From an uncultured Bacteroidales bacterium (GTDB taxonomy: Bacteria > Bacteroidota > Bacteroidia > Bacteroidales > P3): a DNA stretch of 64,000 nucleotides. How positions within the stretch are numbered: position 1 is the stretch's first letter; each line of letters starts with the position of its first letter. Positions 48,189 to 64,000 of the stretch are shown piece after piece. Made by a program: the position numbers and the translations under genes. The notes under the pieces were generated by a model that worked only from the letters and a program-made list of their open reading frames with translations, ran no database searches and was not told where the DNA came from. The stretch is taken from NCBI GenBank assembly GCA_900318275.1, contig ONJY01000005.1, forward strand, positions 32,667 through 96,666, read 5' to 3'.

Positions 48189-48190
48189 AG

Positions 48191-48985
48191 TTATTTCTTT
48201 ACATTCAATTTGTTCCAAATCTTCTGCTCAAGTCCGTTGGGCAGCAGTTTTATCAGCATCGGCAGTATGTAATTCATCACGCCGGGCTTCACCACACGAC
48301 GACGGCGCAGCATACCACGTAGAGCCCGCTTTACAAGCCATTGTGGTGTGCGGATAAGTCCTACGGCCACCCCTATCTTCATTAATCGGGGCTTCATCTG
48401 GTAGAGTGGTGTGGCCACAGCCGCTGGCAGCACGGTGGTGACGCCGACACCGTAGGGTGCAAGCTCGAAATACATCGACTGGGAGAAACTCTTCAAGTAG
48501 GCTTTCGTAGCCGCATAGACGGTGATTCCCGGCGCTGGCAGGTTGGCCGTCATCGACGACATATTGACGATATACCCTCTGTGGCGTGCTTTCATGGCTT
48601 CGCCGAAAAGCATCGTCATACGTGAGGGAGTGAACACATGCAGACGCAGCATTGCGAGGGCCCTGTTATGTGTCGCTTCGTCAATCTCGTGGAAGAAATA
48701 CATACCGGCATTGTTGACCAGAATATCAATCTCAAGATGCTGATTCTGGCAGTAGCTCCATATCTTGTCGGCTGCATCTTCTTGAGAAAGGTCCTGATAA
48801 AAGCCCCACGACCGCACATCATACTGCTCTGCAAGCCTCTGTGGGAGAGTCTCGAGTTGCTCTTGTTGGATGGACACCATCAGCACATTGCATCCCATCG
48901 CGGCCAGCTGTTGGCAGAATTCCCATCCCATGCCCGACGTGCCGCCGGTAACCAACGCATTATATCCTTTGATGTCCCTCATCAT
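48191..48985 (-). CDS. Short-chain dehydrogenase (DltE / 17-beta-HSD-like)
   Basis: 264 residues (a second ATG at 48982 gives one residue less). SDR motifs GGTSGMGWEF, ILVNNAGMYFF, VNMSSMTANL and VYAATKAYLKSFSQS (Tyr-x3-Lys) are all present. The C-terminal part is basic and hydrophobic (LVKRALRGMLRRRRVVKPGVMNYILPMLIKLLP, in two adjoining parts), like membrane-associated SDRs of the 17-beta-HSD3/DltE group. Substrate unknown, perhaps a lipid-type ketone. -7 element 67 nt upstream. Confidence 0.85.
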   Translation of the reverse strand: MMRDIKGYNALVTGGTSGMGWEFCQQLAAMGCNVLMVSIQQEQLETLPQRLAEQYDVRSWGFYQDLSQEDAADKIWSYCQNQHLEIDILVNNAGMYFFHEIDEATHNRALAMLRLHVFTPSRMTMLFGEAMKARHRGYIVNMSSMTANLPAPGITVYAATKAYLKSFSQSMYFELAPYGVGVTTVLPAAVATPLYQMKPRLMKIGVAVGLIRTPQWLVKRALRGMLRRRRVVKPGVMNYILPMLIKLLPNGLEQKIWNKLNVKK

Positions 48986-49051
48986 TTGCGATCAATTTTC
49001 GTTATTTCTTCCATAAGCGTTGTTTTCTTCATATTATAATTTAATACGGTG

Positions 49052-49059
49052 CAAATATA
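49052..49059 (-). promoter_or_regulatory. Promoter -7 element (TATATTTG) for the SDR/GNAT operon
   Basis: Minus-strand TATATTTG fits TAnnTTTG. Upstream at 49060-49130 there are two direct near-copies of the block GGAATTGATTCC/AAAAGTCATG, which could be an operator. Confidence 0.5.
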
Positions 49060-49140
49060 CAACTTTTTTGGAATCAACTCCAAAAAAGTTATGACTTTTT
49101 GGGAATTGATTCCAGAAAAGTCATGTTTTTTGATGCTAAA

Positions 49141-49298
49141 TTACATCCCTCCTTTTATTAATTCATTATATAGAGCCACGCCCTTTACCGTCAACAGGTA
49201 CTTCTGCCTTGGATGGTTGGGGCGGTCGGGGTATCTGGACTTGGGTTTATTATAGACGAGCTTGCACGGTACTTGTGCGGTGCATATACGGAGCTGGG
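49141..49298 (-). pseudogene. Coding remnant with winged-helix-like C-terminus
   Basis: Directly behind the BRO gene, in the frame one base earlier (-1), a protein-like reading frame runs to a TAA at 49143-49141. It reads TQLRICTAQVPCKLVYNKPK, then SRYPDRPNHPRQ, then KYLLTVKGVALYNELIKGGM. The RxYLLTxKGxxLYNEL pattern resembles the wing end of a helix-turn-helix domain. No start codon is seen in frame, so it is either the severed end of another gene or a frameshifted extension of the BRO protein. Confidence 0.4.
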
Positions 49299-50144
49299 TT
49301 ACTTGTTGTTTTTGTCGTCCGTGTTTTCTTGGAGCAGATAGTCGCTGGCCTTCTTCGAAGATATGACAGATCGACCCGTTTGGGCCTCCAGTTTTATGCG
49401 GGCATCACCGGCAATCTGTCCGCCCTTGCGCGCCACAATAGCACTTTGTTTGAATCCTTTTGGATTCTGGGCTTTGCTGATTTCTGTTGCCGATGCTTCT
49501 GCCAAAATATTCAAAGCAAGCTCGATGTTCGTCATATTGTCACGCAAGTTCTCTTTCTTCAGGCCTTTGAATTGCTTGTACTGCCGTGTGGTCTTTCCGC
49601 TCCAAGCCTGAGTGATGATATCTGTCAGCGAGGCATACTGTTGGTTTTCCGTCACTCCGGCACGATTCCATTCGTCTGTCAATTCCTTGCGCACCTCGAT
49701 ACTCTTCAACCGCTGATTGATCCACTTGTCGGAATAACCCAGTCGGCGATAGTCGGCATAGGCCTGTTCGAAGTTCAATTCAGGGTCTTGCATTTGGTCG
49801 AGACGCTGCGCTGCCACCTGTGCCATCCATAGCTTGAAAGGTTCTGCTTTGGGAGAAGGGATGGATTGAATCAGACGGAAAAGCTGCTCGGTATCAGCCA
49901 CATCTGTCAGTCGCATTTTGTCATCTTCGGATTTTAATTTCAACTGGTTACAATTTGTAACCGTTTCATTTCCTTCCTTTAGAAGTCTATGCTTCAAGAC
50001 TTTCCAATAGTTACGAGGATTAGGGCTATCTGTCAACACCCCGCATACATCTACTATCGAAAAGTACCATTTCTCTTGCTCGTCATCCCATACGGTGCGA
50101 ACCTTCTTTTCTTCAAACAGCTGTATTTCTTGCTTCTTTGTCAT
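49299..50144 (-). CDS. BRO-N (phage antirepressor-like) protein
   Basis: 281 residues from the ATG at 50144 (MTKKQEIQLFEEKKVRTVWD). The N-terminal BRO-N domain (about 8-110) shows EKWYFSIVDVCGVLTDSPNPRNYWKVLKHRL and FRLIQSIPSPKAEPFKLWMAQV, the usual blocks. The C-terminal half has QWSGKTTRQYK-like and GFKQSAIVARKGGQIAGDARIKLEAQTGRSV, typical of chromosomal BRO/DinD-like proteins. BRO proteins come from phages and mobile elements; a chromosomal copy marks accessory DNA. DNA-binding role inferred from the family. The stop is followed by a coding remnant in another frame. Confidence 0.82.
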   Translation of the reverse strand: MTKKQEIQLFEEKKVRTVWDDEQEKWYFSIVDVCGVLTDSPNPRNYWKVLKHRLLKEGNETVTNCNQLKLKSEDDKMRLTDVADTEQLFRLIQSIPSPKAEPFKLWMAQVAAQRLDQMQDPELNFEQAYADYRRLGYSDKWINQRLKSIEVRKELTDEWNRAGVTENQQYASLTDIITQAWSGKTTRQYKQFKGLKKENLRDNMTNIELALNILAEASATEISKAQNPKGFKQSAIVARKGGQIAGDARIKLEAQTGRSVISSKKASDYLLQENTDDKNNK

Positions 50145-50226
50145 ATATATAATGTCATTATTCGTTTTATTATTGCATCCCACATTCTCGTATCCCCACA
50201 TTAACACATTCTATCATTCACTTACA

Positions 50227-50254
50227 CATTGTCGGCCAAGCCGACGGCACACCA
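50227..50254. repeat. Direct repeat copy 1 (28 bp)
   Basis: CATTGTCGGCCAAGCCGACG and eight more bases, identical to 50769-50796. It holds the hairpin GTCGGC-CAA-GCCGAC. The two copies bracket the VbhA-like antitoxin gene, and both are followed by similar sequence (GCCGAC-TCAGTT...CAATCA). Confidence 0.8.
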
Positions 50255-50321
50255 TACGCATTCAAATATTGGCTCCGCATGGTCGCCGACTTCAGTTTAA
50301 ACAATCACGCATCTCCTTTTG

Positions 50322-50627
50322 TTAAATTGGCCGGCCCATTTTACTCTCAATCGGGTCAACAGCTTCGATTCTGGTATAGGATAAATATTCTTTCAAGCGC
50401 GACTTCTTTGCATCGCGTTCTTTTAGCAGTTCAATCACTTCATCGATGGAAATCTTTCCTTCAATGTTCCTGCGGGCAAGTTCAAGGAGATAGTCCGACA
50501 CCTGTAGCCCATCCACTGCCTGCAAGCCGATGGCAACGCTCCAAGCCTCCGCTCTTTCACGTTGTGCCGGCTCCCCTTGACGTATATACTCGTCAAAGTT
50601 CAAATATCCGTCATTATCGTTGCTCAT
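50322..50627 (-). CDS. VbhA-like antitoxin (Fic inhibitor type), no toxin adjacent
   Basis: 101 residues from the ATG at 50627 (a TTG two codons earlier is also in frame). The central part SVAIGLQAVDGLQVSDYLLELARRNIEGKISIDEVIELL (quoted across two helices) follows the VbhA antitoxin pattern: the Fic-inhibiting motif of VbhA, Ser-x3-Glu-Gly, corresponds here to Leu-Gln-Ala-Val-Asp-Gly, with Ser and Glu replaced. In related Bacteroidota genes such an antitoxin precedes a Fic-domain AMP-transferase. No Fic gene lies on either side here. An orphan antitoxin, or a regulator, is the likeliest reading. Confidence 0.6.
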   Translation of the reverse strand: MSNDNDGYLNFDEYIRQGEPAQRERAEAWSVAIGLQAVDGLQVSDYLLELARRNIEGKISIDEVIELLKERDAKKSRLKEYLSYTRIEAVDPIESKMGRPI

Positions 50628-50768
50628 ATTCAAATATTATCTTTCCAATTTTCACTTACACATTTACACATTGACTCACTTCATTAATTAATTTCAAAGG
50701 TGTTATTCGCTGCATTATATCTATTTTCAAGGTACTCATGGCCTTCGGCTCGCAGCCTTCGGCACACG

Positions 50769-50796
50769 CATTGTCGGCCAAGCCGACGGCACACCA
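50769..50796. repeat. Direct repeat copy 2 (28 bp)
   Basis: Exact copy of 50227-50254 in the same orientation, 542 bp away, on the other side of the antitoxin gene. Confidence 0.8.
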
Positions 50797-51005
50797 CACA
50801 CATTTATATTGTTATATTGCATTCCCGCATTTACACATTTACGCATTCTATTTGACCCCTTTGCTGTGGCGTCGGCTCTGCCGACAACCCTTAACCGTGA
50901 ACCCTTAACCCTTAACCATACCGCCGACCTCAGTTCACGCAATCAATTGTTCAAGATTTACATTTCCATCTATATAACGGAGAAAGACGTAAAATATTGT
51001 GCAGC

Positions 51006-51032
51006 AAAAAGGACCGCCAAATAAGACGGCCC
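51006..51032 (-). terminator. Rho-independent terminator of the sulfur-modification operon
   Basis: On the minus strand GGGCCGTC (51032-51025) pairs with GGCGGTCC (51018-51011), with two G-U pairs in RNA, loop TTATTT, then TTTTT. It lies 65 nt beyond the last operon stop. Confidence 0.75.
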
Positions 51033-51096
51033 CGTTTCACGTTATATTGTAAAATAATTCACCAAACCCAGTTATTTTTGCTGGGAAGATTTGGCT

Positions 51097-51699
51097 TTAA
51101 TCCAGAGGTTCCAGTTTGTCGTCGTTTTTTTTCTTTTTAGAGAAAACTAGTTCTTGGAAGATGTTGAGGAAAGAATCTTGGTTCATGAAGTAGGTTTCGT
51201 CATCGTCCATTTTATCTTTTATCACCGACAGGCCGTAGTTGATGTATTCTTCCATTGTCATCATCAGAGCGTTTACCGTTTCATTCGGAGTCCAACGGCC
51301 TTTGTCGAGTTCGTACCAGTTTATCTCCGGTGTTTTTGCCACAAGAGCGATGAACATATACTCTCTTAGGCGCGGATATGCTTTCCTGCCCTTTTTCGAA
51401 TCCAAATTACCCCAGAACTGAAGCGGTTGCCCTAAGTCTTTAATATCAAGATCTTCGTTTAACGGCATTTTTTTGTTGGAATATAAACCTATAAAAAATG
51501 CCATAATAAGAACCTCGTAACCTGCACCAAGGACTTTCGCTTTCGACTCAGATGCTTCATTTGTTCCCTTGCCAAAATCAGTCAACGGCTTTATCACTTC
51601 ATCTTCATAGTGTTTCTCGTATGATGGGTTCTTTCGCCCCCACAATTCGAACAATGATACAAAGCGTTCACTATCAAATTTACTATTCTTTATTGCCAT
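51097..51699 (-). CDS. Unrecognised 200-residue operon protein
   Basis: 200 residues, last gene of the operon, 12 nt after the SMC-ATPase stop. Starts MAIKNSKFDSERFVSLFELW. A hydrophobic central helix (KAKVLGAGYEVLIMAFFIGLYS) and an aromatic segment (LGQPLQFWGNLDSKKGRKAYPRLREYMFIALVAK), then a helical acidic part with MTMEEYINYGLSVIKDKMDDDETYF. No nuclease motif (HNH, PD-ExK, GIY-YIG) is seen. It is too long for, and unlike, DndE (about 110-125 residues), although it holds the place at the end of the operon where dndE usually sits. AT-rich codons as in its neighbours. Likely a DNA-binding or complex-forming partner of the SMC ATPase; that is inference. Confidence 0.75.
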   Translation of the reverse strand: MAIKNSKFDSERFVSLFELWGRKNPSYEKHYEDEVIKPLTDFGKGTNEASESKAKVLGAGYEVLIMAFFIGLYSNKKMPLNEDLDIKDLGQPLQFWGNLDSKKGRKAYPRLREYMFIALVAKTPEINWYELDKGRWTPNETVNALMMTMEEYINYGLSVIKDKMDDDETYFMNQDSFLNIFQELVFSKKKKNDDKLEPLD

Positions 51700-51711
51700 A
51701 ACTCATCCTCC

Positions 51712-53877
51712 TTAGTTTATGGGTTCGATTCTTGTTTCAATTGTGGCCAGGTTTTTCTCGTCGAACGGGCGTTTCTTTTCTATCCGATACTTTTTTCCCT
51801 TAATTGCTTTGAGCCGTTTCACATCGATTGATGAAGAACCATCAGCGTTTTCGATGAGGAAACTTTTGGTCACGATAATGGTTTGCTTGTTGATTTCTCC
51901 AATCACTCCAAAGAAGTCGCTTTCCTTAGCAGCAGTAAACGATGACGTAGGTGCATCAAATATTAATGGATAGTCATCTTCGTGTTTCACCGTAGTCAAC
52001 TCTGCTACAGCAAAAAGAAGGGACATATACATTGTTGTCTTAAGAGCGGTATTAGGGTTATAGATACGTGTACCGTCAGTATCAATCAACATCAGTTCTG
52101 CACTTTCATCAGCTTTTTCCACAATATGTGTTTGTCCTCTGAAATCACCACGATTGAGACGTTCTAGATATTTATTAGTAGTGTCTTCAAGTTGCGATAA
52201 GAACTCTCGTTTGTTACGAACCTTTGCAAAAAAGAAAGCCTCAGCTATTCGCCGCATTGCATTACTTGTACGGCCATAGGTGGCTGCTGCAGATTCTTCT
52301 GAAATTTGGCTATATTCTTCTTGATATTCCTCTTTCTTTCTTTGATGCTCGTCAATCTGACGTTTTAAAAAGTCAGATCGGTTTTCGGCACTATTTTTTT
52401 GCTTCCACCATTCTGAAATATTGTTGAATGCTGAAATAAGTTGCTCTTCAGTTAATCCATCTGTTTGCGCCAAAATTTTGCGTTTCTGTTCCTCTTCCTG
52501 TTCTAGTTTTGCCTGCAAACCGTCTGCTATTTCATGGTTGCTGCGGTTCTTTTCTATCTCCGACTTTATGATATTCGGTAAGCGAGACAACCAAGACATT
52601 CCATTATTTAACACCGTGTAACGATTCACAAGCTCTCTTATAAACTCACGTTTGAAGAGGGTTTCTTCCTCGTCTTCCTCGTCGTTAGAGGTATCTTTGA
52701 GAGATGCTAGGTAATCTTCAAGATGTTTTTTCATGGTGTTATATGGCTTCGACCCTTTGGGCGCAGGTGTACCGCATACTTTACACACTTCATCATGAAG
52801 CATTTCGCGCATCGTGTTCTCATCGGGGATGTTTAATGCAAGAGGAACAAAACCCTGGTTAATCTCTTCCTGCATTTTGCCTGCAAGTTTTTTTGCACCT
52901 TGTTCGCGCTGGAACTCGCGTTCCATTCGACGCTGCTCCTTGTCAAGTGTAGCCACGAGGTCCCCATATTCTCTGGCAATTGGCTCAAAACCCATCAATA
53001 ACCACATTTCGTCCAATAAGCGGAATGTGTAGTTCTCTGAAATATTTCGATAGGCTTTATCTATTTTCTCTTTCAAGGTCTCAATCCTCGAATTCGTAGA
53101 GTTTAACAACTCAGAAGATTCTTTGTTTTTCTCCAGTTCGTCAAGGAGGGTTGTAAAGTTTACAGCCTCTTTTTGAGTGTTTTTTAGTTCTTCACTTTTG
53201 TCTCGAATAAAATCAGACTCATTCTTGATTAAGTTTCTCAGTCGTTCAGCTTCTTTACTGTTTTTCTTGTCAGCTTTTATTGCATTGTCGTGTGCGTCTT
53301 GTGCCCATTTCTGAGCTTTGTCTATAAAGTCAATATAGGGATCAAAATCACGAATCTTGCTGAATGTTTCCACAAGATAGCTCATTGCTTCCTCTTTGTT
53401 GAATATGTTCAACTCCTGTTCACCTTTAAACAAACAGTACTTCCTAATCGAGGCAGAGAAATCAATATCAAACAACCTCTTTGCAGCATCACCTTCACGA
53501 ACATCTTTTTCACTTCCATTTTGCACATAGATACAATGCAAATAGTTGGATGTCGACACCGAATTATCAGGAGATTTTGTGAATTTGAAAGACTTCTCAA
53601 CTATTTTTTCACTACGCTCACACTCATACGTCATCGATACTTTGACCATTGCAGAATCACCCGGCATCAATTCGGCAATTTTCTTTTTTGAGATATACTT
53701 AGTATCTACCTTTGGTTTACTGTCAACAGTGTCAAATAGCCATTCCAAAGCCTCAAAGAGTGTGGTTTTACCATCACCATTGGCTCCGATAATTAGAGTT
53801 AGGCCTTCTCCAACATCCATACTGTTGTTTCCGTAGTAACTACGGAAGTTGTCGATAGAGATATTCTTTATTATCAT
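51712..53877 (-). CDS. DndD-like SMC/Rad50-type ATPase with zinc hook
   Basis: 721 residues. Walker A GANGDGKTT at residues 31-39, long coiled coils (about 200-340 and 430-580) around a zinc hook Cys365-x2-Cys368 (DEVCKVCGTPAP), and Walker B in DDYPLIFDAPTSSF near 640. The opening MIIKNISIDNFRSYYG and the length match DndD of DNA-sulfur-modification systems; other Rad50-like defence ATPases are alternatives. DndD-type ATPases are thought to alter DNA structure or supply energy for sulfur insertion. Its ATG overlaps the stop of the 80-residue gene (ATGA). Companion of the DndC-like gene in the same operon. Confidence 0.82.
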   Translation of the reverse strand: MIIKNISIDNFRSYYGNNSMDVGEGLTLIIGANGDGKTTLFEALEWLFDTVDSKPKVDTKYISKKKIAELMPGDSAMVKVSMTYECERSEKIVEKSFKFTKSPDNSVSTSNYLHCIYVQNGSEKDVREGDAAKRLFDIDFSASIRKYCLFKGEQELNIFNKEEAMSYLVETFSKIRDFDPYIDFIDKAQKWAQDAHDNAIKADKKNSKEAERLRNLIKNESDFIRDKSEELKNTQKEAVNFTTLLDELEKNKESSELLNSTNSRIETLKEKIDKAYRNISENYTFRLLDEMWLLMGFEPIAREYGDLVATLDKEQRRMEREFQREQGAKKLAGKMQEEINQGFVPLALNIPDENTMREMLHDEVCKVCGTPAPKGSKPYNTMKKHLEDYLASLKDTSNDEEDEEETLFKREFIRELVNRYTVLNNGMSWLSRLPNIIKSEIEKNRSNHEIADGLQAKLEQEEEQKRKILAQTDGLTEEQLISAFNNISEWWKQKNSAENRSDFLKRQIDEHQRKKEEYQEEYSQISEESAAATYGRTSNAMRRIAEAFFFAKVRNKREFLSQLEDTTNKYLERLNRGDFRGQTHIVEKADESAELMLIDTDGTRIYNPNTALKTTMYMSLLFAVAELTTVKHEDDYPLIFDAPTSSFTAAKESDFFGVIGEINKQTIIVTKSFLIENADGSSSIDVKRLKAIKGKKYRIEKKRPFDEKNLATIETRIEPIN

Positions 53878-54116
53878 AGGAATAGGTTGTTATTCAGATA
53901 AGTAAATACTTTTTTGTAAACTTCTTTTTGTTTTGAGGCATCAATTGAACCGTCAAGTTCACGAATGATACGAGCGACACTTGCAATAACAGCATTATCA
54001 CTCCGTAAAGCCTCTTGCAAATCAAGGCCTTCCAGCTGCTCGGCTGAATAGCCATACTGCTTCATTAGCTGCTCATTGTTGAGCACTAACTGCAACATCT
54101 TATCTTTCTGTGTCAT
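53874..54116 (-). CDS. 80-residue operon protein, unrecognised
   Basis: Small helical protein (MTQKDKMLQLVLNNEQLMKQ... to VYKKVFTYLNNNLFL), no known motif. Its start overlaps the helicase stop region by 17 nt and its stop overlaps the SMC-ATPase start by 4 nt, so it is translated in step with both and is almost certainly real. It is shorter than DndE and lacks its conserved NWNVLCRW-type core. It may be an adaptor between helicase and SMC ATPase; inference only. Confidence 0.75.
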   Translation of the reverse strand: MTQKDKMLQLVLNNEQLMKQYGYSAEQLEGLDLQEALRSDNAVIASVARIIRELDGSIDASKQKEVYKKVFTYLNNNLFL

Positions 54117-56355
54117 TGGTTATGTGTGTATTATCAAATAAGTTTAATCCGTAATAATTCATCACATCTAATAATTCTATCTGAGCTTGTGATGGGTTCT
54201 CAGACATAGATGAGAAATCATATACTCGTTTCAGCTCCCCAGCTAATAATGACTGCTCCATCCGGTAGCTTTGAGTTCCAGGCATTACTTTCGGCACCAC
54301 AACTAAATCATGGATATATGAGTATTTTTTATCTTTGTGTGTTCTGAGTACGCGGCCACGTCTTTGTATAAATTGTCGTGGATTTCCAGTACTTGCACAA
54401 AAAATTGCTAGCTCACTTCGTGGAACATCCACACCTTCATCCAAACACTTCATTGATGTGAGTACCTGAAGTCGTCCTGCTGCGAAATTGTCTAAAACAG
54501 AATCTCTGTCTTTAGTATCTCCGGTGAATTTTCTTACTGTTACATATTTGTCGACATCGCATACCACTTGAGTGTAAAGGTCAATCAGGTGTATAGAATC
54601 CTTATCGTCGCTTAATGTCTCGTGTTTGTCGAAGATGTCTGCATCCATATCATTGGGGATACTTCCCTCTGGTACGTAAACAAGAGTGTATTTTAGTGTG
54701 CCGTGTTCGTCAAAACGTTTTTTGATTATATTTCTGAAAATCGGTAATTTGTTGTCCGCCTTATGAATAATTCTTTTGCGAGCAAGCAGTAATGCTGTCA
54801 GCACATCGTCCGTTTTCTCAAATGTTCCACTATTAAAGTTGAAATAACGAGAGATTTTTGTTGACAATTCTGCATATTGCTTCATCTCTTCGTCAGTTAG
54901 TTGTACAATGTGAGGATAGTAATAGTAACGACAAAGAACGCCGTTCTTTATTGCTTTCTCCATAGGGTACTCGTAGGTGTATTTCCCATTTACACCAAAG
55001 AAATGTTCTAGTCGTCTGTTTGTTTGCTCATCAAATTGTCTTTCTGGTGTGGCTGATAATCCTATCCTCCGTAGATATTTGATGTCACCAAGTCTTCTCA
55101 GAATACCGGGAGCCCCCATATTATGAGCCTCGTCTGCAATCAGCAACATCTTGTTGCGAGAGAAGTCATTCAATATGTCAAACACGTTCTTCCGCACAAA
55201 TGAACAATATGTCGCAATAATGATATACGAGACGTTTTTATCATCAAAACATTGCCGCTCATCGAAATGTATCCTCCTTATCTCTTCTCGCCAAGAAGGA
55301 TTATTTGAACTTATCTTCACAATCCTCACAAACCCAAACTTCCGGCATTCCGACTCCCACTGCTCAACAAGGGTAATTGTTGGCACCAGAATCAAAGCCT
55401 TATAATACCCTTTTTGTTTATATATTTCAAGCAAGCAATTGAGGGCCGTTAAGGTTTTGCCAGTACCCGTGGCCATAGCAAAAAGTCCTTGTTGATTTTT
55501 CTTCCAATTATCAAAAGCCTCCTTTTGGTAGTCGCGAGGCCCTGATGGATATGGGAAATGAGGCTCTTCGACAAACGTGTCCTCACTAACAGAAAGCGCT
55601 TCTGATTCTTGCTCCTTTTGTTTCCTTTGTTTCTTTAGTTTCCGCAATTGTTGTTCAGCATTCAGAAGCTCCTCAATATCTTTGTCTCCATAATTGGATT
55701 TGATGGCAGAAACGAGTTTATCGGGAGAAAGATATTCAATATTACGCTTTCTATGAGACATAATAGCATCAAACTCTTCACGCTGATTGGCAATCCGCTT
55801 TTGAACCATTCTGTCTACAGAATCGCTTCGATCAATCTTTATCTCTTCAATATTATTGAACAATCCGCTAATGGTAAAGTTTGCCGAGCCGGTAAAGGAG
55901 GTTGTACTGTCATCATCTCGGAACTGTCCAGATTTTATATGTGCTATTCCTTTTTTGTTTTGTGGCCGAATAATTCGGATGTCAATGCGTTTATTGTTGA
56001 TAAGAAATGCTAAGCACTCAAAGAATTGTTGTTGGTATTCGTCAAATGTTTGACGTAATATTTCAAAGTTGGATAGGTCAAAACAGTCAATCACACCACC
56101 ATACACACCCTTGCTAATGGCATCCTTGTCCTCTTGTGAAACAATGTGATTGATAATCAGGCGCATTCTTCCTCCTCTTGAAATAAATGAAGCGAATCCT
56201 TCTGACAATACGCTAATCGTAGCAGAACTGAAGTATCCAAGCTGAAGGTCAAACTCATTGCTATTCTCCAAGCAATCGTTGAAAAACTTCTCTGGTGAAT
56301 AATAATCACCATATCGGTAAGTGCCGTCTTCAGCCCAATCTACCTCGTATAGCAT
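54100..56355 (-). CDS. Phospholipase-D-type nuclease fused to SF2 helicase
   Basis: 751 residues. N-terminal PLD half-site: His139-x-Lys141 in IAHIKSGQF with the following GSANFTISG (156-164), the signature of PLD-family nucleases; such domains usually act as dimers. A charged linker (about 225-265) leads to a full SF2 helicase: Walker A ATGTGKT with Lys300, DEAH box at 408-411 (ADEAHNMG), SATPER, and motif VI in QRRGRVLR. The fusion is common in anti-phage operons and resembles the restriction parts of type III and Dnd-linked systems. Likely effector or DNA-scanning motor of the operon. Confidence 0.88.
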   Translation of the reverse strand: MLYEVDWAEDGTYRYGDYYSPEKFFNDCLENSNEFDLQLGYFSSATISVLSEGFASFISRGGRMRLIINHIVSQEDKDAISKGVYGGVIDCFDLSNFEILRQTFDEYQQQFFECLAFLINNKRIDIRIIRPQNKKGIAHIKSGQFRDDDSTTSFTGSANFTISGLFNNIEEIKIDRSDSVDRMVQKRIANQREEFDAIMSHRKRNIEYLSPDKLVSAIKSNYGDKDIEELLNAEQQLRKLKKQRKQKEQESEALSVSEDTFVEEPHFPYPSGPRDYQKEAFDNWKKNQQGLFAMATGTGKTLTALNCLLEIYKQKGYYKALILVPTITLVEQWESECRKFGFVRIVKISSNNPSWREEIRRIHFDERQCFDDKNVSYIIIATYCSFVRKNVFDILNDFSRNKMLLIADEAHNMGAPGILRRLGDIKYLRRIGLSATPERQFDEQTNRRLEHFFGVNGKYTYEYPMEKAIKNGVLCRYYYYPHIVQLTDEEMKQYAELSTKISRYFNFNSGTFEKTDDVLTALLLARKRIIHKADNKLPIFRNIIKKRFDEHGTLKYTLVYVPEGSIPNDMDADIFDKHETLSDDKDSIHLIDLYTQVVCDVDKYVTVRKFTGDTKDRDSVLDNFAAGRLQVLTSMKCLDEGVDVPRSELAIFCASTGNPRQFIQRRGRVLRTHKDKKYSYIHDLVVVPKVMPGTQSYRMEQSLLAGELKRVYDFSSMSENPSQAQIELLDVMNYYGLNLFDNTHITNDTER

Positions 56356-56362
56356 GGTTTAA

Positions 56363-57463
56363 TTATATGAAGCAATTTGAACACATTATTTCATCGCCCA
56401 GTATTTCAGCTAGGGTTGTTCCTTTGTTTTGTTTTCGGCTTTCTTCCTGTCGTTTGATGATGTCGAGTTTTATCTGTCGCACACGTTCCGGACGGCACAT
56501 CTCTTCAAGGCTTTCATTCTGGTTCCAAGTGTATCCGTCTTTCTCAAACTCCATCGCTTTTTGGTAAAGGTCGGGGTGCTGTTCGTAAAGCCATATCCAC
56601 TCAATCTTTTGCTGGAAGAAACAGAAATAGCATCCCGAACGACTCCTACAATAGGTACCTTGTTTCCCATCCACTTCAAAGGGGATTTCCTCATAATATG
56701 CCGGCACACCCACACCACTCTCACGCAGCAGGCGGAAGATATCATCCTTAACCAGCACGTCAGTATTGTCCAACAGAGGGAAGTCATCCAGTTTACCTAC
56801 GGGATAGTCGGTCGTTTTCAGATATTCAAACACTACATGGTTGAACAACTTCACATCGTAGTCGAGCAAGGCATTCAGTTTCTTGGAGTAGTAATACTGT
56901 TTGGTGATGGGCTTACGCACCGTTTCCATAATCTCGTCACGCATCAATCCCTGTGGACATAGTTTGTCGTATGTGCTAATCAGCTGTTCAAGATTATCGT
57001 TTCCGAGAATTTTATTAATTACATCGAGGCTCCAGATATTCTTACGGAATGGGAAGATGGCTTGAATATTGGGTTTAGACGAAATGTAACCGTCTCTGTC
57101 TTCGTCACCACGGATGCCCACATAAGATATGGCCACATCGTCGCCTACATACCGTTCAAACTCCTGAAGCTTCATTTTCTGTGTACACCAGCGTGCTTGT
57201 GGCGATGGAAGGAATCCTCCGGCAGCTTTCAGAAAATGATGGAACGGCGTTGGTTCAGGACTGTCTTTTGCTGCCCGCAAACGTACAATCTTACCCAAGT
57301 AGGCTTCGAGGCGGTCAATCAGCAATTCGGTCTCTTCCAATTCGCACCCTGTATCAGAGTTGTAGTACTCAATCTTCAATTCTGGATAGCGTTGTTTAAG
57401 GTAGATTGCGAGAGCCGCGCTGTCTTTGCCTCCAGATATTCCCAGTATGTGCCGAATCTTCAT
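56363..57463 (-). CDS. DndC-like sulfurtransferase (PAPS-reductase family)
   Basis: 366 residues. PP-loop ATP-pyrophosphatase motif SGGKDS at 10-15; Cys93 in RWCTQKMK; Cys272, Cys278 and Cys281 in YCRSRSGCYFCFF, probable iron-sulfur ligands; and a C-terminal Cys361-x2-Cys364. This set matches DndC/SspD/BrxP-type enzymes, which are thought to put sulfur into the DNA backbone, rather than metabolic CysH, which lacks the added cysteines and is not found in such operons. 4-nt overlap with the ATPase gene upstream. A cysteine desulfurase (DndA/IscS) to supply sulfur is not in the window; a housekeeping one could serve. Confidence 0.86.
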   Translation of the reverse strand: MKIRHILGISGGKDSAALAIYLKQRYPELKIEYYNSDTGCELEETELLIDRLEAYLGKIVRLRAAKDSPEPTPFHHFLKAAGGFLPSPQARWCTQKMKLQEFERYVGDDVAISYVGIRGDEDRDGYISSKPNIQAIFPFRKNIWSLDVINKILGNDNLEQLISTYDKLCPQGLMRDEIMETVRKPITKQYYYSKKLNALLDYDVKLFNHVVFEYLKTTDYPVGKLDDFPLLDNTDVLVKDDIFRLLRESGVGVPAYYEEIPFEVDGKQGTYCRSRSGCYFCFFQQKIEWIWLYEQHPDLYQKAMEFEKDGYTWNQNESLEEMCRPERVRQIKLDIIKRQEESRKQNKGTTLAEILGDEIMCSNCFI

Positions 57464-60400
57464 TTTGTAATCTTCTTGTTAAGCAGTTCCAGCAGGATGC
57501 ACACATCCAAATTATTATCGCCAGTCAGTAGATTCTCTATGTCCTTTTGCAACTTAGTGGCTTTCTTCTTGTCTTTTTCAGGAAGGAGATAGGTGGATGT
57601 ACGCACATTAGTTCCCTTGTTGGTCACGAGGTCGAAGGAATAGGCATCGCCATTATCGTCATCGCCAACCATTCGCGAAATATCTGCATATTTCTCACAT
57701 TCGCGGAACATGTGCACGAGGTCTTCTGCTAGTTTCTCCTCCTGTTCGTCTCGAAGTGTATCCAAACGTTGCTCCAATACGGTATAGCATATGGATTGAT
57801 ACCATTGTACCCGATTGTCATACTCGGTGGTTGCATGCTGATAGAACTCACGCTGTTTCTCGGTCAATAAATGAGTCTTGATATTGGCCAGTCGTTCTCT
57901 GATTTCCACAATATATTCGCCATACTCATACGATTGAAGACCTAATCCGTAGACCACATGCTGCTCCAAACGGTCAATCAATTGTGTGTAGCAGTTGCGT
58001 AATTCCCTGATGGCTCGTTGTATAATGTTGCCGTATTCGTTGACGAACTCCTCTTGTTTCAGCTTCACCTTGTCGAACCCTAATGCTTCGGGGAGATCTT
58101 CAAAGAATGCCTTTTCTGGATCTTTGGCTTTTGCAAGTACATCACGGAATTTCAACGTAGATTCGTGGTCAAGTTTTCGTGTATGCTTTGTATAATCGTT
58201 AAGTCTGAGATAGAAGTTCAAAAAAGGCTTAATCGTCTCGATAAAACTGCTGCTGGTAATTGTGAATTCATCACCAAGGTTGACAAATTTGCGGTACTGG
58301 TTAAAGAAACCGAGCTTCACCCCATCTACGGCAAACTTTTTCACTTCATACTCTGATGGATGCTTCTGCAACAAGTCGAAGAATTCCATGTTCACATTCG
58401 GGATGAACGAGCCATTTGATGTGTTGTAAAGCGCATATTCTTGACGACGGATAAAGAGATATGTGGGAATCCAGAAGTCGAGAAGCCCCTGTTTGAGTTT
58501 GTAGGGTTGATTGGAGAGAATCTTGATTAGTTCCGAAATCTTACGGGGACGATTCTCTGTCGTTGTCAGGAAATCCTCACAAGCATTCCACACCGACATG
58601 AAACCCTCATTGGTGGGCGCATCGGAAAATTCTCCATTCTGATGCAAGCCCGTATGCTTCAATAGCGAGAAATAGATTGTCTTCTCGGGAGGGAATTTGT
58701 CCTTGGGGAATCCCATATCTTTTTCCTCGCTGTGTTCTACCAGTCGTACAAGATAGTTCTTCCGTGCAGCAGAGATGGTGCCACTCAACTTATGCTTGTT
58801 GCAAAGCTCGTTGTTCATCACCGGAGTCATCGGATAAACTATATCGCAGACTTTGGAAAGCAGTCGGTTGAAATCGCGATGCGACTCCACCTTTTGCACT
58901 TTGCCTTTGAATATCCATACAACACGGTCCTTGTACGAGAATAGATTGTCGCTGATGGCCTTGTTCAGCAGGTTTTCTTCATACTCCTTCAAACGCTTGA
59001 TTTCGTTGACTGCAACACGGTCGTTCTTATCCAATACGCGTTCAAGGAGATATCCATACTTCTTGATGTTGTAGAGGTGGTCAACAATCTCCTCGGTATT
59101 CTTGAAGAAAGCGAAGATTAACGCATTGTCGGATTCCTCACTAGCCCTTTTTAAATCTGCGAGAGCATTCTTGTTTGTGGAAAATATTAGTTCGATATAC
59201 CCATCCGTATCGCCCGATGGTGTAATGTTTAGCGGTGCATCCAGAACTTTGTAGTCGAAGAATCGCGGTGTGCCTTTCTGGTAAAAATGAGCCTTTACTG
59301 GAGAAATGCGCTTGTTAAAGAATACGCTCAATTCATCCACAAACGCAACTGGCTTGGGTACTATAAGCGAAGCCTCCCTTATCTCGGATTCAAGGTCCAC
59401 ATCAGTACCCTCAAAGAGTACCAGCCGTTCTTTATAGGCAGCAAAACGGACAATCTTCTTGTCTTTGAGCAATCGTATTACCTCATCTGCGTTGTCGAGA
59501 TGCATCGCCTGTTCGGCATACAAAGCCAATTGATTTTCGTTTAGTTGGAATCCGGCAACACCAAACAAATTGAGTAATCCTATCGCTTTTACCAGATTGA
59601 TTGCAGAAAGCATTTGCTGATGGTCGCTCCAATCGTGACCCTCCACTCGTTCAACAGCCACTTGCATTGCGCTCCAACTCATTGTGTCAGCATTGGCATC
59701 ACGAATATACGATTGGAAGTTATAGACGATGTAGTCGTAAACTAGCGCGAGGTTATACGTGAGATTGTCTTCAGGAGTGAAAGCGCCCAAAGAACCGCTG
59801 CCTTTTGACGCGAGAAATGTGAATAACGAACGTTCGTTTTGGCCATACCTGCGAATGGCTGCTGCAGTCACAAAAGCAGAGAATGGATCTAATGGATAGA
59901 TTTGTTGTGCAGTTTCAATAGGGAAGTCGGAGGAAATGAATCGGGTGTCAATGGCCAACTTGTGTATTGTAGCAATGTTGGGATAGGTCTCTTTATGAGT
60001 CTTCCCATATTGCTTTGTTGCCAGTTGAAGTATTTGTTCTATGGGTTCAACGAAAGTAATCTCCTTGAAGCGGCCTTTTACCTTCGTCCATTCATTCACC
60101 TGTTCCCTGGATAGACCTTTGGCATATGCGCTAAAGTTTTGATGCAATGTGGTTAGCAGCAGCACTTGCTTGTTAGAAGAGTTGGCAAATTCGGCAATCT
60201 TCTGTAAAATATACAGTTCTTTCTCTGGATTGTTTTTTGCCGCGTGTTCAAGTATTTTGCCAAATTCATCGATCACTAAAACCATAAACTCACCTCTCTT
60301 CTGACATTCGCTGTAGTAATGTTTTAGTTCATCGACAACGCTGTTTCTGCTTTCTCCCACTCCAAGCGCACGTTTCAACAATAGGGACAGCTCCTCGTAA

Positions 60401-60684
60401 TCACCCACCACATTTACGATATTGTATCCTTTTGCTGTGGATAGGTTGGTGGGATTCAATAAAAATGACTTTTTGTTACATTTTTTCATATCCGACTCCA
60501 GAGCAAGCAAGAAGCTCGACTTGCCTGTGCCATAGGAGCCAATGATGGTGAAGGAGTGGATGCCCGACTGATAGTCATTAAGGATGGTGGCAATGCTCTG
60601 TCGGGCATTGGGGGTAACGATGTATTGCGTGCCAGCCGCAAAGCCGTTTTCTATATTTGCCGATAAGTTAATCGTGGGTGTCAT
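57460..60684 (-). CDS. Large P-loop ATPase (BrxC/PglY-like)
   Basis: 1074 residues. Walker A GSYGTGKSS at 49-57, Walker B FMVLVIDEFGKILE with Asp139-Glu140, and a sensor-type LLTTLHQNFSAYA. The rest is long, helical and poorly conserved, with coiled segments near the C-terminus (REQRQ-type, EKQREFYQHATTEYDNR). Size, opening and neighbours recall the BrxC/PglY ATPases of BREX systems. Its role could be DNA loading or licensing of the effector. Overlaps: 17 nt with the DUF4007 gene, 4 nt (ATGA) with the DndC-like gene. Confidence 0.78.
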   Translation of the reverse strand: MTPTINLSANIENGFAAGTQYIVTPNARQSIATILNDYQSGIHSFTIIGSYGTGKSSFLLALESDMKKCNKKSFLLNPTNLSTAKGYNIVNVVGDYEELSLLLKRALGVGESRNSVVDELKHYYSECQKRGEFMVLVIDEFGKILEHAAKNNPEKELYILQKIAEFANSSNKQVLLLTTLHQNFSAYAKGLSREQVNEWTKVKGRFKEITFVEPIEQILQLATKQYGKTHKETYPNIATIHKLAIDTRFISSDFPIETAQQIYPLDPFSAFVTAAAIRRYGQNERSLFTFLASKGSGSLGAFTPEDNLTYNLALVYDYIVYNFQSYIRDANADTMSWSAMQVAVERVEGHDWSDHQQMLSAINLVKAIGLLNLFGVAGFQLNENQLALYAEQAMHLDNADEVIRLLKDKKIVRFAAYKERLVLFEGTDVDLESEIREASLIVPKPVAFVDELSVFFNKRISPVKAHFYQKGTPRFFDYKVLDAPLNITPSGDTDGYIELIFSTNKNALADLKRASEESDNALIFAFFKNTEEIVDHLYNIKKYGYLLERVLDKNDRVAVNEIKRLKEYEENLLNKAISDNLFSYKDRVVWIFKGKVQKVESHRDFNRLLSKVCDIVYPMTPVMNNELCNKHKLSGTISAARKNYLVRLVEHSEEKDMGFPKDKFPPEKTIYFSLLKHTGLHQNGEFSDAPTNEGFMSVWNACEDFLTTTENRPRKISELIKILSNQPYKLKQGLLDFWIPTYLFIRRQEYALYNTSNGSFIPNVNMEFFDLLQKHPSEYEVKKFAVDGVKLGFFNQYRKFVNLGDEFTITSSSFIETIKPFLNFYLRLNDYTKHTRKLDHESTLKFRDVLAKAKDPEKAFFEDLPEALGFDKVKLKQEEFVNEYGNIIQRAIRELRNCYTQLIDRLEQHVVYGLGLQSYEYGEYIVEIRERLANIKTHLLTEKQREFYQHATTEYDNRVQWYQSICYTVLEQRLDTLRDEQEEKLAEDLVHMFRECEKYADISRMVGDDDNGDAYSFDLVTNKGTNVRTSTYLLPEKDKKKATKLQKDIENLLTGDNNLDVCILLELLNKKITK

Positions 60685-61528
60685 AGTAGTCGTCTAAAAC
60701 ATTCATTCGTTCAGCATTACCAGTAAACTGGATTTGACGGATACCAGCTACATCGCTGTATGAGAGTACATCAGGATAGGACTCGCTCAGGGTGCGCAAC
60801 ATATTGACGGTTTCCATCTCGTTCATGCAGAATACCAATCCGATGCTATCCTGTACGGTCTCAAAGGGTAACGAACGGTCGCCACTTTCCTCCTGTATTG
60901 TCAGCAATGCATAGAGGAACACCTCCTGCACCAACTGTCGTTTGCCTCCGTAGTTGAAATAGTAGTCTTTAACCTCGCTGCTCTGACGAATCAAGTCCAG
61001 ATCTATCATCAACGAAGAGAAGTCCTCGTTGGAAACGGGTTTGCGGGGAAGAGCATAGTTCTGCAACAATACGGCAATATCCTTCTTCACCGTATTGGCA
61101 TTGAAAATCTTTTGCTTACCATCTTCGGCCATACGTAGGGCCACATACGACAATGCCTGCTCGCGGTCGAAAGAGGAACGCTCGCGTTGGAGGCCACAGA
61201 AAAGCATGGGATAAAGGGTTGCTTCGCCGCGATGCACAAGGATAAAATGTAGTAGTTGCAGAGAAGCAATATCTTCGAGGTAGATGTCTTTCCCTTCCTT
61301 GTCATCGAACAGATAATTGGCCAGTGGGGTGGTTGTAGTACCATCGTAGAGACCAAAAGATTTGAGCCAGTATCGTATGGAAGCCACCATATTCTTGCCA
61401 ACACCAAGGTCGACAACAGCATCTGGGCTATTGAAATCGCGTCCGGCGCAAACAAAATCGTACCCTTTCTTCAACCACATGGTCTTGCAAGGGAAAGATT
61501 CGTGTCCCGAGAAGCAGTATTTAGTCAC
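60668..61528 (-). CDS. DUF4007 protein
   Basis: 286 residues with a GTG start (61528-61526). The opening YCFSGHESFPCKTMWLKKGYDF and AVVDLGVGKNMVASIRYWLKSFGL are the DUF4007 hallmark blocks. The family is found in defence operons next to PAPS-reductase-type and ATPase genes, and has no proven activity; a winged-helix-like DNA-binding function is suspected from the pattern. In the BREX and Dnd literature it is linked to sulfur-modification genes, as far as I recall. The start is 8 nt behind the stop of a possible 64-residue leader gene. Confidence 0.85.
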   Translation of the reverse strand: MTKYCFSGHESFPCKTMWLKKGYDFVCAGRDFNSPDAVVDLGVGKNMVASIRYWLKSFGLYDGTTTTPLANYLFDDKEGKDIYLEDIASLQLLHFILVHRGEATLYPMLFCGLQRERSSFDREQALSYVALRMAEDGKQKIFNANTVKKDIAVLLQNYALPRKPVSNEDFSSLMIDLDLIRQSSEVKDYYFNYGGKRQLVQEVFLYALLTIQEESGDRSLPFETVQDSIGLVFCMNEMETVNMLRTLSESYPDVLSYSDVAGIRQIQFTGNAERMNVLDDYYDTHD

Positions 61529-61536
61529 TCTTTTCG

Positions 61537-61731
61537 TCAGTCATTTCCATTCCGCAAGCCTCCCACGGACAGGTTAAACAATAAGAAAGGCATGAGACTT
61601 ATGTGCTCATGTCCGTTTTGTATTAAGGTATCGCCAAACACCTTTGCTAGGAACGGAAAACCGATCGGTTCTTCCATGGAACATATCTCACGCCTGGAGG
61701 TATGCATTTGTGGAAATAGCATACGCAACAA
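61537..61731 (-). CDS. Possible 64-residue leader protein of the operon
   Basis: ATG at 61731, stop TGA at 61539-61537, 8 nt before the GTG of the DUF4007 gene. It lies between the operon promoter and the first sure gene. The sequence (MLRMLFPQMHTSRREICSME... VFGDTLIQNGHEHISLMPF...) has no recognised motif. It may be a real first gene, a regulatory leader peptide, or the remnant of a lost gene. Confidence 0.35.
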   Translation of the reverse strand: MLRMLFPQMHTSRREICSMEEPIGFPFLAKVFGDTLIQNGHEHISLMPFLLFNLSVGGLRNGND

Positions 61732-61838
61732 GCGAAAGCAAAATGCTCGGTCCCCTAGCTAAAAATTGGCGATTTTTAATACAAGGACATTATTAGCAAT
61801 GCTTTTCTTGCAAGGCTTACATCGCGCGTAAGCGATTG

Positions 61839-61870
61839 CAAAAATACGAAGAATAATTCAATCTGCCAAA
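61839..61870 (-). promoter_or_regulatory. Promoter of the sulfur-modification operon (TTTG - 20 nt - TATTTTTG)
   Basis: Minus-strand -7 TATTTTTG (61846-61839) and -33 TTTG (61870-61867). The block to about 61895 resembles the promoter of the HNH gene at 63008-63060. Confidence 0.6.
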
Positions 61871-61883
61871 ATATTTTTGGCAG
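61863..61883. promoter_or_regulatory. Palindrome over the -33 region (possible operator)
   Basis: CTGCCAAAA (61863-61871) is the exact reverse complement of TTTTGGCAG (61875-61883), 3-nt centre. It covers the -33 TTTG of the operon promoter, as a repressor site would. It could instead be a weak terminator of the HNH gene, but no T-run follows on that strand. Confidence 0.5.
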
Positions 61884-61905
61884 GGTATGGGAAATGATGT
61901 GTATT

Positions 61906-62976
61906 TTAGTATTTCCAGGTTTCAAATCCCATATTAAGCGCAATCTGATTTATGGGATTAAATGTCCTCATGTAGAGCTCCCGAAAATGTATATCGTCCA
62001 TACTCGCTAGCTCATTTGCCGTATAGCCAAGAGAGATAAAATCATCAATTGCACTCGGCTTCTTGTTGGCATTGAGTAAGAGTTGAATGGAGTGATGTTG
62101 TAAGTCGGCAAATTTCGGCAGATAGACGTTCAAATCTGGTAGTTTATTGCTCTTTGAGGAGTTTATGCTACCATCAGACGGAACCAGGTTCCAAAGTAAG
62201 TCGTGTGATACGAAACTCCAGGGAATGAAGTGGTCAAGATCATAGTCTCCTGGATGCAATTCAACATTGGTATAAATGCAATGTATCGGGCCACCAATGT
62301 TCATTACCATATCCCAGTAATTATGCTGTTTGGTCAGTTGAGTTCTCGCCTCTGGACGAATCAGTTTATTGGGAATGGCTGGCACGTTTGGATTCCTTGT
62401 TTGCAAAAAGAGGGTTAAGTTCCAGTAGGCGAAGTCAACCAAAAGATTGTAATGATTATGAAGATAATTGTTCCAAGCAGGATTCAGTTTGATATAGAAG
62501 TCGTTTCTCTCTTTATGCAAAGAGTACAGGCATTCATTTTCTAGTGTTTGCGAACGCTTGACCACTTCATCATCGCTCGAATAGCTTATCCATGGGGAGA
62601 GAAAACGATAAGGGACGTTTCTGGTTAAGATGTATAATTGTCTTTTAATTTGTCCTTCTTCCAATCGACTCGTCAGCTCGTTTATTACTGTATCATTATT
62701 TGCATCAATAGGAATCTGTGTTATCCGTTGCAGCTCAATCACTATACTAAACAACGAATCGCCCTTGCCAAACGATAAACGGAAATAATGGATAGGATAC
62801 CACGCATTCGCAACCATCCTTATTACGATATCCCACACATTGATTCGCGAATTGTCACTCTTTGCATGTATCTGCAAGATAGACACAAGCCAAAAGAACT
62901 TGTAGGTTGCCGTCGTATTCGTGAAAACCCTTCCAAGTCGATTTGTGGTCAATATGTCCGATTGCGGAATCTTCAT
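61906..62976 (-). CDS. HNH endonuclease-domain protein
   Basis: 356 residues. The C-terminal third has an HNH motif: GGPIHCIYTNVELHPGDYDLDHFIPWSF, then DLLWNLVPSDGSINSSKSNKLP, with the Asp-His pair, the Asn of WNLVP and the lysine-rich end. The N-terminal 200 residues are a helical region of unknown type. The enzyme would cut DNA and need a metal ion. It lies upstream of the sulfur-modification operon on the same strand, 175 nt before its first possible codon, with a similar promoter. It could be an effector that reads modified or unmodified DNA, or an unrelated defence gene. Confidence 0.82.
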   Translation of the reverse strand: MKIPQSDILTTNRLGRVFTNTTATYKFFWLVSILQIHAKSDNSRINVWDIVIRMVANAWYPIHYFRLSFGKGDSLFSIVIELQRITQIPIDANNDTVINELTSRLEEGQIKRQLYILTRNVPYRFLSPWISYSSDDEVVKRSQTLENECLYSLHKERNDFYIKLNPAWNNYLHNHYNLLVDFAYWNLTLFLQTRNPNVPAIPNKLIRPEARTQLTKQHNYWDMVMNIGGPIHCIYTNVELHPGDYDLDHFIPWSFVSHDLLWNLVPSDGSINSSKSNKLPDLNVYLPKFADLQHHSIQLLLNANKKPSAIDDFISLGYTANELASMDDIHFRELYMRTFNPINQIALNMGFETWKY

Positions 62977-63007
62977 CAGTCGATGGTGCTATAATTTATA
63001 TGATTTG

Positions 63008-63038
63008 CAAAGATACGAAGATTATTTCAATTGGCAAA
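63008..63038 (-). promoter_or_regulatory. Promoter of the HNH gene (TTTG - 19 nt - TATCTTTG)
   Basis: Minus-strand -7 TATCTTTG (63015-63008) and -33 TTTG (63038-63035), spacer 19 nt. The flanking sequence resembles that of the operon promoter at 61839. Confidence 0.65.
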
Positions 63039-64000
63039 ATAATGTTTCGCGCGTGCGGGAAACACATGGTTAGCAGCAGAAAAGAAACACCCTCCATCAG
63101 TCTCAAATCTCAAATCTCAGTTGCAAAAAAAAAGTCACCATTCAACTCGCAACCCCTCTCTTATAACTATTATAACTAATTAATAATAAGATATATATAT
63201 GAGAAAAGAAGGGTGCAGGATGGATGTGCGGGATGACTTTAAAAACAACTGAGACTCTGAGACTGAGACTGCCGGACGCCCTTCGTCGACATCATACAAT
63301 CCATAACCACTTGTGCCTCATAGGGAAAATCATAGAGGGAGCAAAGATGCCAATGGACCGGGCGTTTCAGTTGTTTCAGTTTCAGTTCGATTTATGTGTG
63401 TCAATTGTTTTTCAAACATCCTATATATATTATTTAACTAATTAATAATTAATATAATAGATATAAGAGGCGAAACTACATACCATCCATTTTTCAATTG
63501 AAACAACTGAAACTGAAACGCCCATCCCCAATACAATCTCACCCAAAAGGCATAGAACCAATAAAATACGGCATCGCCAACCCCTCCGCACCCCAGCTGT
63601 CACCCTTCAGAAACGTGACAAAATATATCCAAATCCTCCTCTATAAGGCCATAAACACCCTCTGCACCCCTCCTTCCAGCACCTTTCACCCTCCCCAGCG
63701 CTCTCATTCGCACTCCCGAAACTCACCCCTAATCCCTCATTCCTGAGCCTCTTTTGTGCCAATCAGACCACTCTCCCCGCCGAAATTAAGGTGTCCCCAT
63801 CCTAAACTTTGACCCATTATCACTCTTAACTCTTAACTCTTATCCCACTGTCCCTCCCCTCGTCCACCAAGCCCTCTCCATCGCCCAGAAGGTGGAACGA
63901 AAAAGGTCGCAAAGGCCTCGTAGGGAAAATAGCGAATAATTAAAACAACTCATCAAAACCAAATCCGACAGTCCGACAGTCCGACAGAAAGAAAAATGCG
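63039..64000. repeat. Gene-free, repeat-rich right end of the window
   Basis: About 960 nt with no supported gene. It holds CTGAGACT tandem units (63243-63270); GGGCGTTTCAG...TTTCAG repeats at 63359-63388 and their inverted copy at about 63500-63523; two AT-rich blocks in opposite orientation (about 63158-63205 and 63420-63475, both with ACTAATTAATAA); ACTCTTA units (63820-63845); and three TCCGACAG copies (about 63965-63989). It may be the edge of a repeat or mobile element that continues beyond the window. Confidence 0.6.

Follow-up and report, generated by a model that had tools for sequence, protein, structure and literature searches.

The window considered here is a 64,000-nucleotide stretch of contig ONJY01000005.1 from an uncultured Bacteroidales bacterium, and its minus strand carries an operon of seven intact open reading frames (ORFs) that runs from 61528 to 51097 in the order sspB-sspC-sspD-pbeA-pbeB-pbeC-pbeD. 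On the strength of family and profile matches, the operon is two known modules joined: sspBCD, which is associated with single-strand phosphorothioation, followed by pbeABCD, a restriction cassette known from archaea, where it accompanies DndCDEA. What is new is the combination; both modules, and the kind of system, are known. The best explanation, and a probable one, is that the operon encodes an SspBCD-PbeABCD phosphorothioation restriction-modification system in which a sulfur mark gates an attack on unmarked DNA. What carries this explanation is the identity of the genes, their intact motifs, the recurrent linkage of the two modules, and the division of the proteins into two co-diverging blocks that reassort.

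Neighbouring genes in the operon overlap by 17 base pairs (bp) at sspB/sspC, 4 bp at sspC/sspD, 17 bp at pbeA/pbeB and 4 bp at pbeB/pbeC, and are separated by 7 bp at sspD/pbeA and 12 bp at pbeC/pbeD (Table 1). Relatives of all seven proteins align over their full length, and the active-site motifs that were searched for are present. A preliminary description of this DNA, made from the letters alone, had reported seven closely spaced genes on one strand, had assigned domains to them, and had read the set as a non-standard DNA-phosphorothioation defence; all three statements hold. Its upper boundary of 61731 takes in a 64-amino-acid (aa) ORF for which no support was found. The description of the set as a hybrid also stands, but as one of Ssp modification with Pbe restriction, and not of Dnd with BREX (bacteriophage exclusion).

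Table 1. Features of the ssp-pbe operon and its flanks, in window coordinates.
Feature	Position	Strand	Description
sspB	60668..61528	-	DUF4007, 286 aa, GTG start at 61528; PADLOC SspB 7e-84, PF13182 246 bits
sspC	57460..60684	-	Orc/Cdc6-type AAA+ ATPase, 1074 aa; PADLOC SspC 1210 bits; Walker A GSYGTGKS
sspD	56363..57463	-	sulfurtransferase, 366 aa; PADLOC SspD 293 bits (9e-88); SGGKDS
pbeA	54100..56355	-	HKD/PLD nuclease fused to superfamily 2 (SF2) helicase, 751 aa; PADLOC PbeA 1023 bits
pbeB-like	53874..54116	-	80 aa, predicted all-helical; profile match to PbeB-position proteins
pbeC	51712..53877	-	ABC ATPase with CxxC zinc hook, 721 aa; weak PADLOC matches and position
pbeD-like	51097..51699	-	200 aa; profile match to PbeD-position proteins
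HNH endonuclease gene	61906..62976	-	356 aa, upstream of operon; PF13395 42 bits
terminator-like stem after pbeD	51033-51010	-	9-pair stem then T's; pattern scan

The marking module is present in full, with SspB, SspC and SspD encoded in one operon and with the P-loop and cysteines of SspD intact (Cys 278, 281, 361 and 364 are invariant in all 81 aligned sequences). With the PADLOC models, the large ATPase scores far higher as SspC than as BrxC (227 bits), and the sulfurtransferase far higher as SspD than as DndC (24 bits, E 6e-6), which replaces the BrxC-like and DndC-like labels first given to these proteins. A grouping of the sulfurtransferase with metabolic CysH, named beforehand as an outcome that would count against a role in DNA modification, is rejected because SspD has no Pfam match at E 0.01 and a PF01507 gene is absent from the host genome assembly, which is 88.6% complete. 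The first three proteins do recall BREX type 4, whose DUF4007 protein, BrxC and PAPS-reductase-like protein are homologous to SspB, SspC and SspD according to the available text of PMC12839542, and the operon might be read as a degenerate or divergent member of that type. However, no PglZ or BrxL is encoded among the seven genes, and SspD and SspB reach only 14 and 20 bits with BrxP, far below their Ssp scores, so that this reading, contradicted by gene content, is very improbable. On the same ground (PADLOC and Pfam), BREX type 4, Dnd, SspE and SspFGH were each rejected as the identity of the operon.

In the case of the second module, PbeA also matches TIGR04095, the NCBIfam phosphorothioation restriction enzyme, at 392 bits, under the cut-off of 600; Pfam places ResIII/DEAD and a weak PLD domain in it, and the HKD, DEAH and Walker A (ATGTGKT) motifs are in place. 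PbeC carries ABC-type AAA domains in Pfam and a zinc hook, CKVC at residues 365-368, that is conserved in all 64 aligned sequences; the CxxC and Walker A motifs recur in 63 of 63 relatives. Its PADLOC matches are weak (LmuB 1e-17, PbeC 3e-17). A Dnd-Pbe locus (L089) of a genome of the same order (G083) is instructive in this regard, as it encodes DndC (474 bits), an ATPase in the DndD position, DndE (NCBIfam 54.5 bits, under the cut-off of 71.85), PbeA, a 74-aa protein, a second ATPase and a 355-aa protein. The ATPase in the DndD position scores 437 bits with PADLOC PbeC and 272 bits with DndD, and the second ATPase scores 72 bits with PbeC. The PbeC models thus cannot tell PbeC and DndD apart, which makes position relevant to the naming of PbeC; by position, the zinc-hook ATPase of the window, previously called DndD-like, is PbeC. 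The gene preceding dndC in this locus (L089:16740-17993, minus strand) resembles TIR/cyclase-type effectors, not DndB.

The 80-aa and 200-aa proteins have no match in the family libraries, PADLOC included, and the 200-residue protein had accordingly been described as unrecognised. Profile comparison nonetheless aligns the 80-aa family with the small proteins in the PbeB position of three Pbe loci (L089, L102 and L093; E 1.9e-6, probability 90%), and the 200-aa family with the PbeD-position proteins of the same loci (E 3.7e-15, probability 98.5%); the 200-aa protein also finds the 355-aa L089 protein by tblastn at 3e-6. These matches are the reason that the window is read as sspB-sspC-sspD-pbeA-pbeB-pbeC-pbeD. 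The 355-aa protein in turn matches TIGR04062 (phosphorothioation-associated protein 4) at 1.3e-5, under the cut-off, which a PbeD from a Rhizobium plasmid passes. A direct comparison of the window PbeD family with the Rhizobium PbeD is not significant (probability 5%), and none of 38 members of the 200-aa family matches PADLOC PbeD. In four relatives (L018, L020, L033 and L043), PbeD reaches 380-382 aa and has an additional C-terminal portion as well as an acidic stretch. PbeD is treated as a DndE cognate in the available sections of Rakesh 2024 (PMC10853773). A search for a DndE identity of the 200-aa protein by sequence, profile and fold gave no match to L089 DndE, Pfam, or PDB sequences or folds, which leaves room for remote homology.

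The two modules are found together repeatedly. SspD used as a query against GTDB genomes gave 191 confirmed relatives. The 80 best of these were taken, a set biased to close SspD relatives. A PbeA homologue lies downstream of sspD in 74 of these 80; tblastn detects the complete set of seven in 51 (the SspC match covers only 7% in one of them, L048), and PbeB is the only gene not detectable in another 11. Of the six relatives without PbeA, one ends just after sspD (L039), three have SspE there (L011, L037 and L050), and two have a gene set that includes a 540-aa protein (L074 and L081). A less biased sample consists of 295 genomes from the order. The SspD model finds matches in 50 of them at E 0.001, and in 13 the match is strong (>160 bits); the other 37, some of DndC or BrxP length, were set aside as weaker relatives. 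PbeA, found at E 1e-20 in 11 of the 295 genomes, is at the sspD locus in 6 of the 13 strong-SspD genomes, the window's own included, versus 5 of the 282 others carrying PbeA (Fisher p 8e-7; 1e-5 when the genome of the window is left out). The genes lie on the same strand within 5 kb in five of the six shared loci and are convergent in one (G039), where a cysteine desulfurase (SspA/DndA, 519 bits; L093:16110-17276, minus strand) precedes pbeA, convergent to sspBCD.

Similar arrangements extend beyond this order. A Sphingomonadaceae (alphaproteobacterial) plasmid carries, on one strand, genes for a cysteine desulfurase, DUF4007 protein, ATPase, sulfurtransferase, helicase, small protein, ATPase and small protein, which is sspA ahead of the order seen in the window; its PbeA is 28% identical. 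On a Rhizobium plasmid, sspABCD is convergent with pbeB-C-D-A. Both plasmids were found among the records listed (26 with a PbeA relative; for SspD, the best 30 of 61 and 60 of 66). Two metagenome-assembled contigs labelled Bacillota also carry the set, complete in L077 and cut in L067, where binning errors are possible. On a Mesorhizobium plasmid (L111, NZ_CP062230.1), sspBCD converges on genes that encode a PLD protein, an ATPase and a helicase separately and that are perhaps another attack module. The whole set is present on two IMG/VR predicted viral contigs (L107 and L108), the latter with a gene similar to a terminase large subunit (phrog_2, 2e-9) upstream, and prophage carriage is possible. 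A 15-kb record from human faeces entered as 'Bacteriophage sp.' (L112, MT835926.1), which is unverified and may be a bacterial contig, contains sspBCD and the start of pbeA.

Pairwise protein distances across 49 operons (48 relatives and the window) show SspBCD and PbeABCD to be two co-diverging blocks that have been paired and swapped repeatedly. Distance correlations are 0.83-0.93 within SspBCD and 0.82-0.94 within PbeABCD, and 0.17-0.40 between the blocks. Strong PbeABCD splits contradict 29 of 35 strongly supported SspBCD splits, whereas SspC alone contradicts none of the 35 and SspB alone contradicts three. The approximately unbiased (AU) test rejects the tree of each block on the data of the other, with a program warning of too few replicates. 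For instance, in a pair of relatives (L002 and L046) PbeA, PbeB, PbeC and PbeD are 98, 98, 99 and 95% identical, and SspB, SspC and SspD 54, 63 and 84%. Within the Pbe block, PbeBCD conflicts with 7 of the 30 strong splits of PbeA, and PbeA is thus partly its own unit. When window PbeA is compared with that of L002 (near-twin of L046) in successive windows, identity is 30-53% over residues 1-270 and 62-97% from residue 271 on, with PbeC 90% identical; the nuclease half of PbeA thus exchanges on its own. The idea that the exchanged N-terminus reads SspB specificity was tested and found no support, since the correlation with SspB is 0.28 for PbeA residues 1-255 and 0.33 for residues 270-751.

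The reassortment of the blocks is what would be anticipated if they acted separately. The SspBCD mark would then be used in regulation or be read by SspE or inserted genes, and PbeABCD would restrict by a recognition of its own. Available sections of Rakesh 2024 (PMC10853773) question the coupling of Pbe to phosphorothioation, and those of Xiong 2019 (PMC6459918) report Pbe beside methyltransferases as well. Separate action is nevertheless quite unlikely, given that Ssp-Pbe linkage is strong in two phyla and that SspB, once SspD or SspC is accounted for, stays slightly associated with each of the four Pbe proteins (partial correlation 0.21-0.33, p 0.002). The residual association of SspC with Pbe given SspD is weaker (0.13-0.18, p 0.004-0.014), and once SspB is accounted for no positive association is left for SspC or for SspD. 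The pattern is consistent with SspB being the component whose target Pbe has to observe, the effect being small and still including shared ancestry.

If the operon is a mark-gated restriction-modification system, as favoured here, its sulfur chemistry, self-protection and antiviral effect would resemble those of studied homologues. A cysteine desulfurase encoded elsewhere would supply sulfur to SspD; SspB and SspC would select a short site, at which SspD would place a phosphorothioate on one strand of self DNA. PbeC and PbeD, with PbeB, may load on DNA, where the SF2 motor and HKD nuclease of PbeA would cut or stall DNA lacking the mark, such that unmarked phage DNA fails to multiply. As far as the available sections of the papers go, the mark that SspBCD sets in studied strains is on one strand at CCA, and unrestrained SspFGH damages cells that lack SspBCD marking (PMC8092258); PbeABCD with DndCDEA lowers viral DNA, with all four pbe genes contributing (Xiong 2019, PMC6459918).

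A different outcome is envisaged in Rakesh 2024 (PMC10853773), the consulted portions of which propose, from fast-evolving PbeB-type proteins, that Pbe-type systems are suicidal: PbeABCD would be an abortive effector, restrained by PbeB and the sulfur mark, that turns against host DNA once a phage interferes with one or the other. PbeB is indeed among the most divergent of the seven proteins (mean distance 0.55, with PbeC at 0.54). The proposal rests, however, on PbeB-type proteins being mostly disordered, as that paper calls them, whereas the 80-aa protein is modelled as ordered and helical (mean predicted local distance difference test score, pLDDT, 88), and pbeB was needed for protection and not inhibitory in the part of Xiong 2019 (PMC6459918) available. 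Suicide is therefore an unlikely role for the operon.

Several points weigh against mark-gated restriction as well. The between-block correlations are low but all above permutation (p 0.001), and the blocks are therefore not fully independent. The small proteins of the Sphingomonadaceae plasmid are assigned by position only, and sequence comparisons for them are not significant. There is no sspA within the operon, and the one strong PF00266 cysteine desulfurase in the 88.6%-complete genome (six other matches are weaker) has an RTGHHC motif, which we take to be SufS-like; the sulfur donor would be this enzyme or a gene missing from the assembly. The literature search found no experiment on any SspBCD-PbeABCD pair. 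Finally, the accessible text of Xiong 2019 (PMC6459918) reports that Pbe did not visibly cleave viral DNA, which means that nuclease action cannot be taken for granted; that of Rakesh 2024 (PMC10853773) argues cleavage from the HKD domain.

Related operons also hold additional genes. Gaps of >150 bp are found at sspC-sspD in 14 of 71 loci and at sspD-pbeA in 29 of 70, and at none of the other junctions (sspB-sspC 0/70, pbeA-pbeB 0/59, pbeB-pbeC 0/53 and pbeC-pbeD 0/63). One or other position holds an insert in 29 of the 63 loci in which sspC, sspD and pbeA are complete; the window operon has none at either. Insert representatives were scanned against the libraries and the remainder grouped by BLAST. 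The inserts are recurring gene sets on the same strand, and those at sspD/pbeA encode SspE (895 bits in L006), a DndB relative with a 180-aa protein, a HATPase protein with two partners, a GmrSD_N protein with a kinase, a 540-aa protein with a BrxC/D-like ATPase and a 278-aa protein, or HNH with a HIT/methyltransferase protein. Those at sspC/sspD encode AAA_21 with a 230-aa protein, a YhcG nuclease, RhuM, DUF3990, or an HNH pair (HNH and HIT/methyltransferase).

Such inserts raise the tentative possibility, rather less than probable, that SspBCD-PbeABCD is an expandable phosphorothioation platform, with reassorting marking and attacking blocks, interchangeable effector cassettes at sspC/sspD and sspD/pbeA, and the sspD/pbeA cassettes acting as further readers of the sulfur mark. 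Among the 295 genomes, the 540-aa protein is found in two, both times at sspD and once in the query's own genome; the HATPase protein has matches in 15, with two of the three strong ones (>500 bits) at sspD and the remaining places elsewhere; and the GmrSD_N protein has only distant matches, in 38, one beside sspD (G156). The link of the cassettes to Ssp loci is therefore mixed. The HNH protein encoded upstream of the window operon has relatives of 47-50% identity inside or beside four related operons (L032, L034, L048 and L076), and may be an accessory gene.

Among the closest described systems is DndCDEA-PbeABCD of Haloterrigena jeotgali (Xiong 2019, PMC6459918, in the sections available), which shares the PbeA-B-C-D gene order and likewise couples it to phosphorothioation genes. 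The window differs in marking by SspBCD, without linked DndC, DndD or DndE, and in PbeB and PbeD relatives that the family libraries do not find. SspBCD is shared with SspABCD-SspE and SspABCD-SspFGH (Wang 2021, PMC8092258, likewise in part), but the attack module here is PbeABCD: PADLOC and Pfam find no SspE (GmrSD-type) among the seven proteins, none of which is FtsK-like, and no SspF, SspG or SspH label occurs among the PADLOC matches listed. SspE is additional to Pbe in four relatives (L004, L006, L015 and L057). A zinc-hook ABC ATPase, HKD-SF2 protein, small protein and fourth gene are likewise shared with the CxC ABC-ATPase systems, which the available portions of Rakesh 2024 (PMC10853773) pair with DndDE or methylases. 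In the literature covered, which stops short of a gut BREX type 4 preprint (2024) and a 2024 Annual Review of phosphorothioation, no publication was found joining sspBCD and pbeABCD as one locus, and no named system matches exactly, an outcome the preliminary description had held open. The PADLOC paper (PMC9252829, in part) refers to a PT_other model that covers incomplete sets, and software may therefore already flag such loci.

In the available text of Wang 2021 (PMC8092258), only 196 of 2,678 sspBCD loci have sspFGH, 199 have sspE and 36 have both, so most are without a known attack partner; in that of Xiong 2019 (PMC6459918), 165 of 553 PbeAC pairs lack a marking partner nearby. The Ssp-Pbe operon offers a partner for some of each. 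If mark-gated restriction is correct, the Pbe attack module could be governed by a single-strand mark from different machinery, and one could test whether Pbe recognises the phosphorothioate directly and not a Dnd protein. Among the marking subunits, the residual co-divergence singles out SspB as the one to whose choice of site Pbe may need to be matched.

The GC content is 42.1% over 51097-61528, versus 57.5% in window positions 1-48000, which suggests that the operon was gained horizontally. No tRNA was found in window positions 45000-64000, and the window ends at the contig end. The terminator previously placed after the operon corresponds to a stem followed by T's, although terminator-like sites in the operon region are not above shuffles (8 found, shuffle mean 10.4); promoter-like counts in the pattern scan likewise are not above shuffles. 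Just downstream of the operon lies a gene for a BRO-domain protein (49299-50207, minus strand; phrog_15286, 7e-118), preceded by one for a VbhA-antitoxin-like protein (50322-50633, minus strand) that scores just below the Pfam cut-off.

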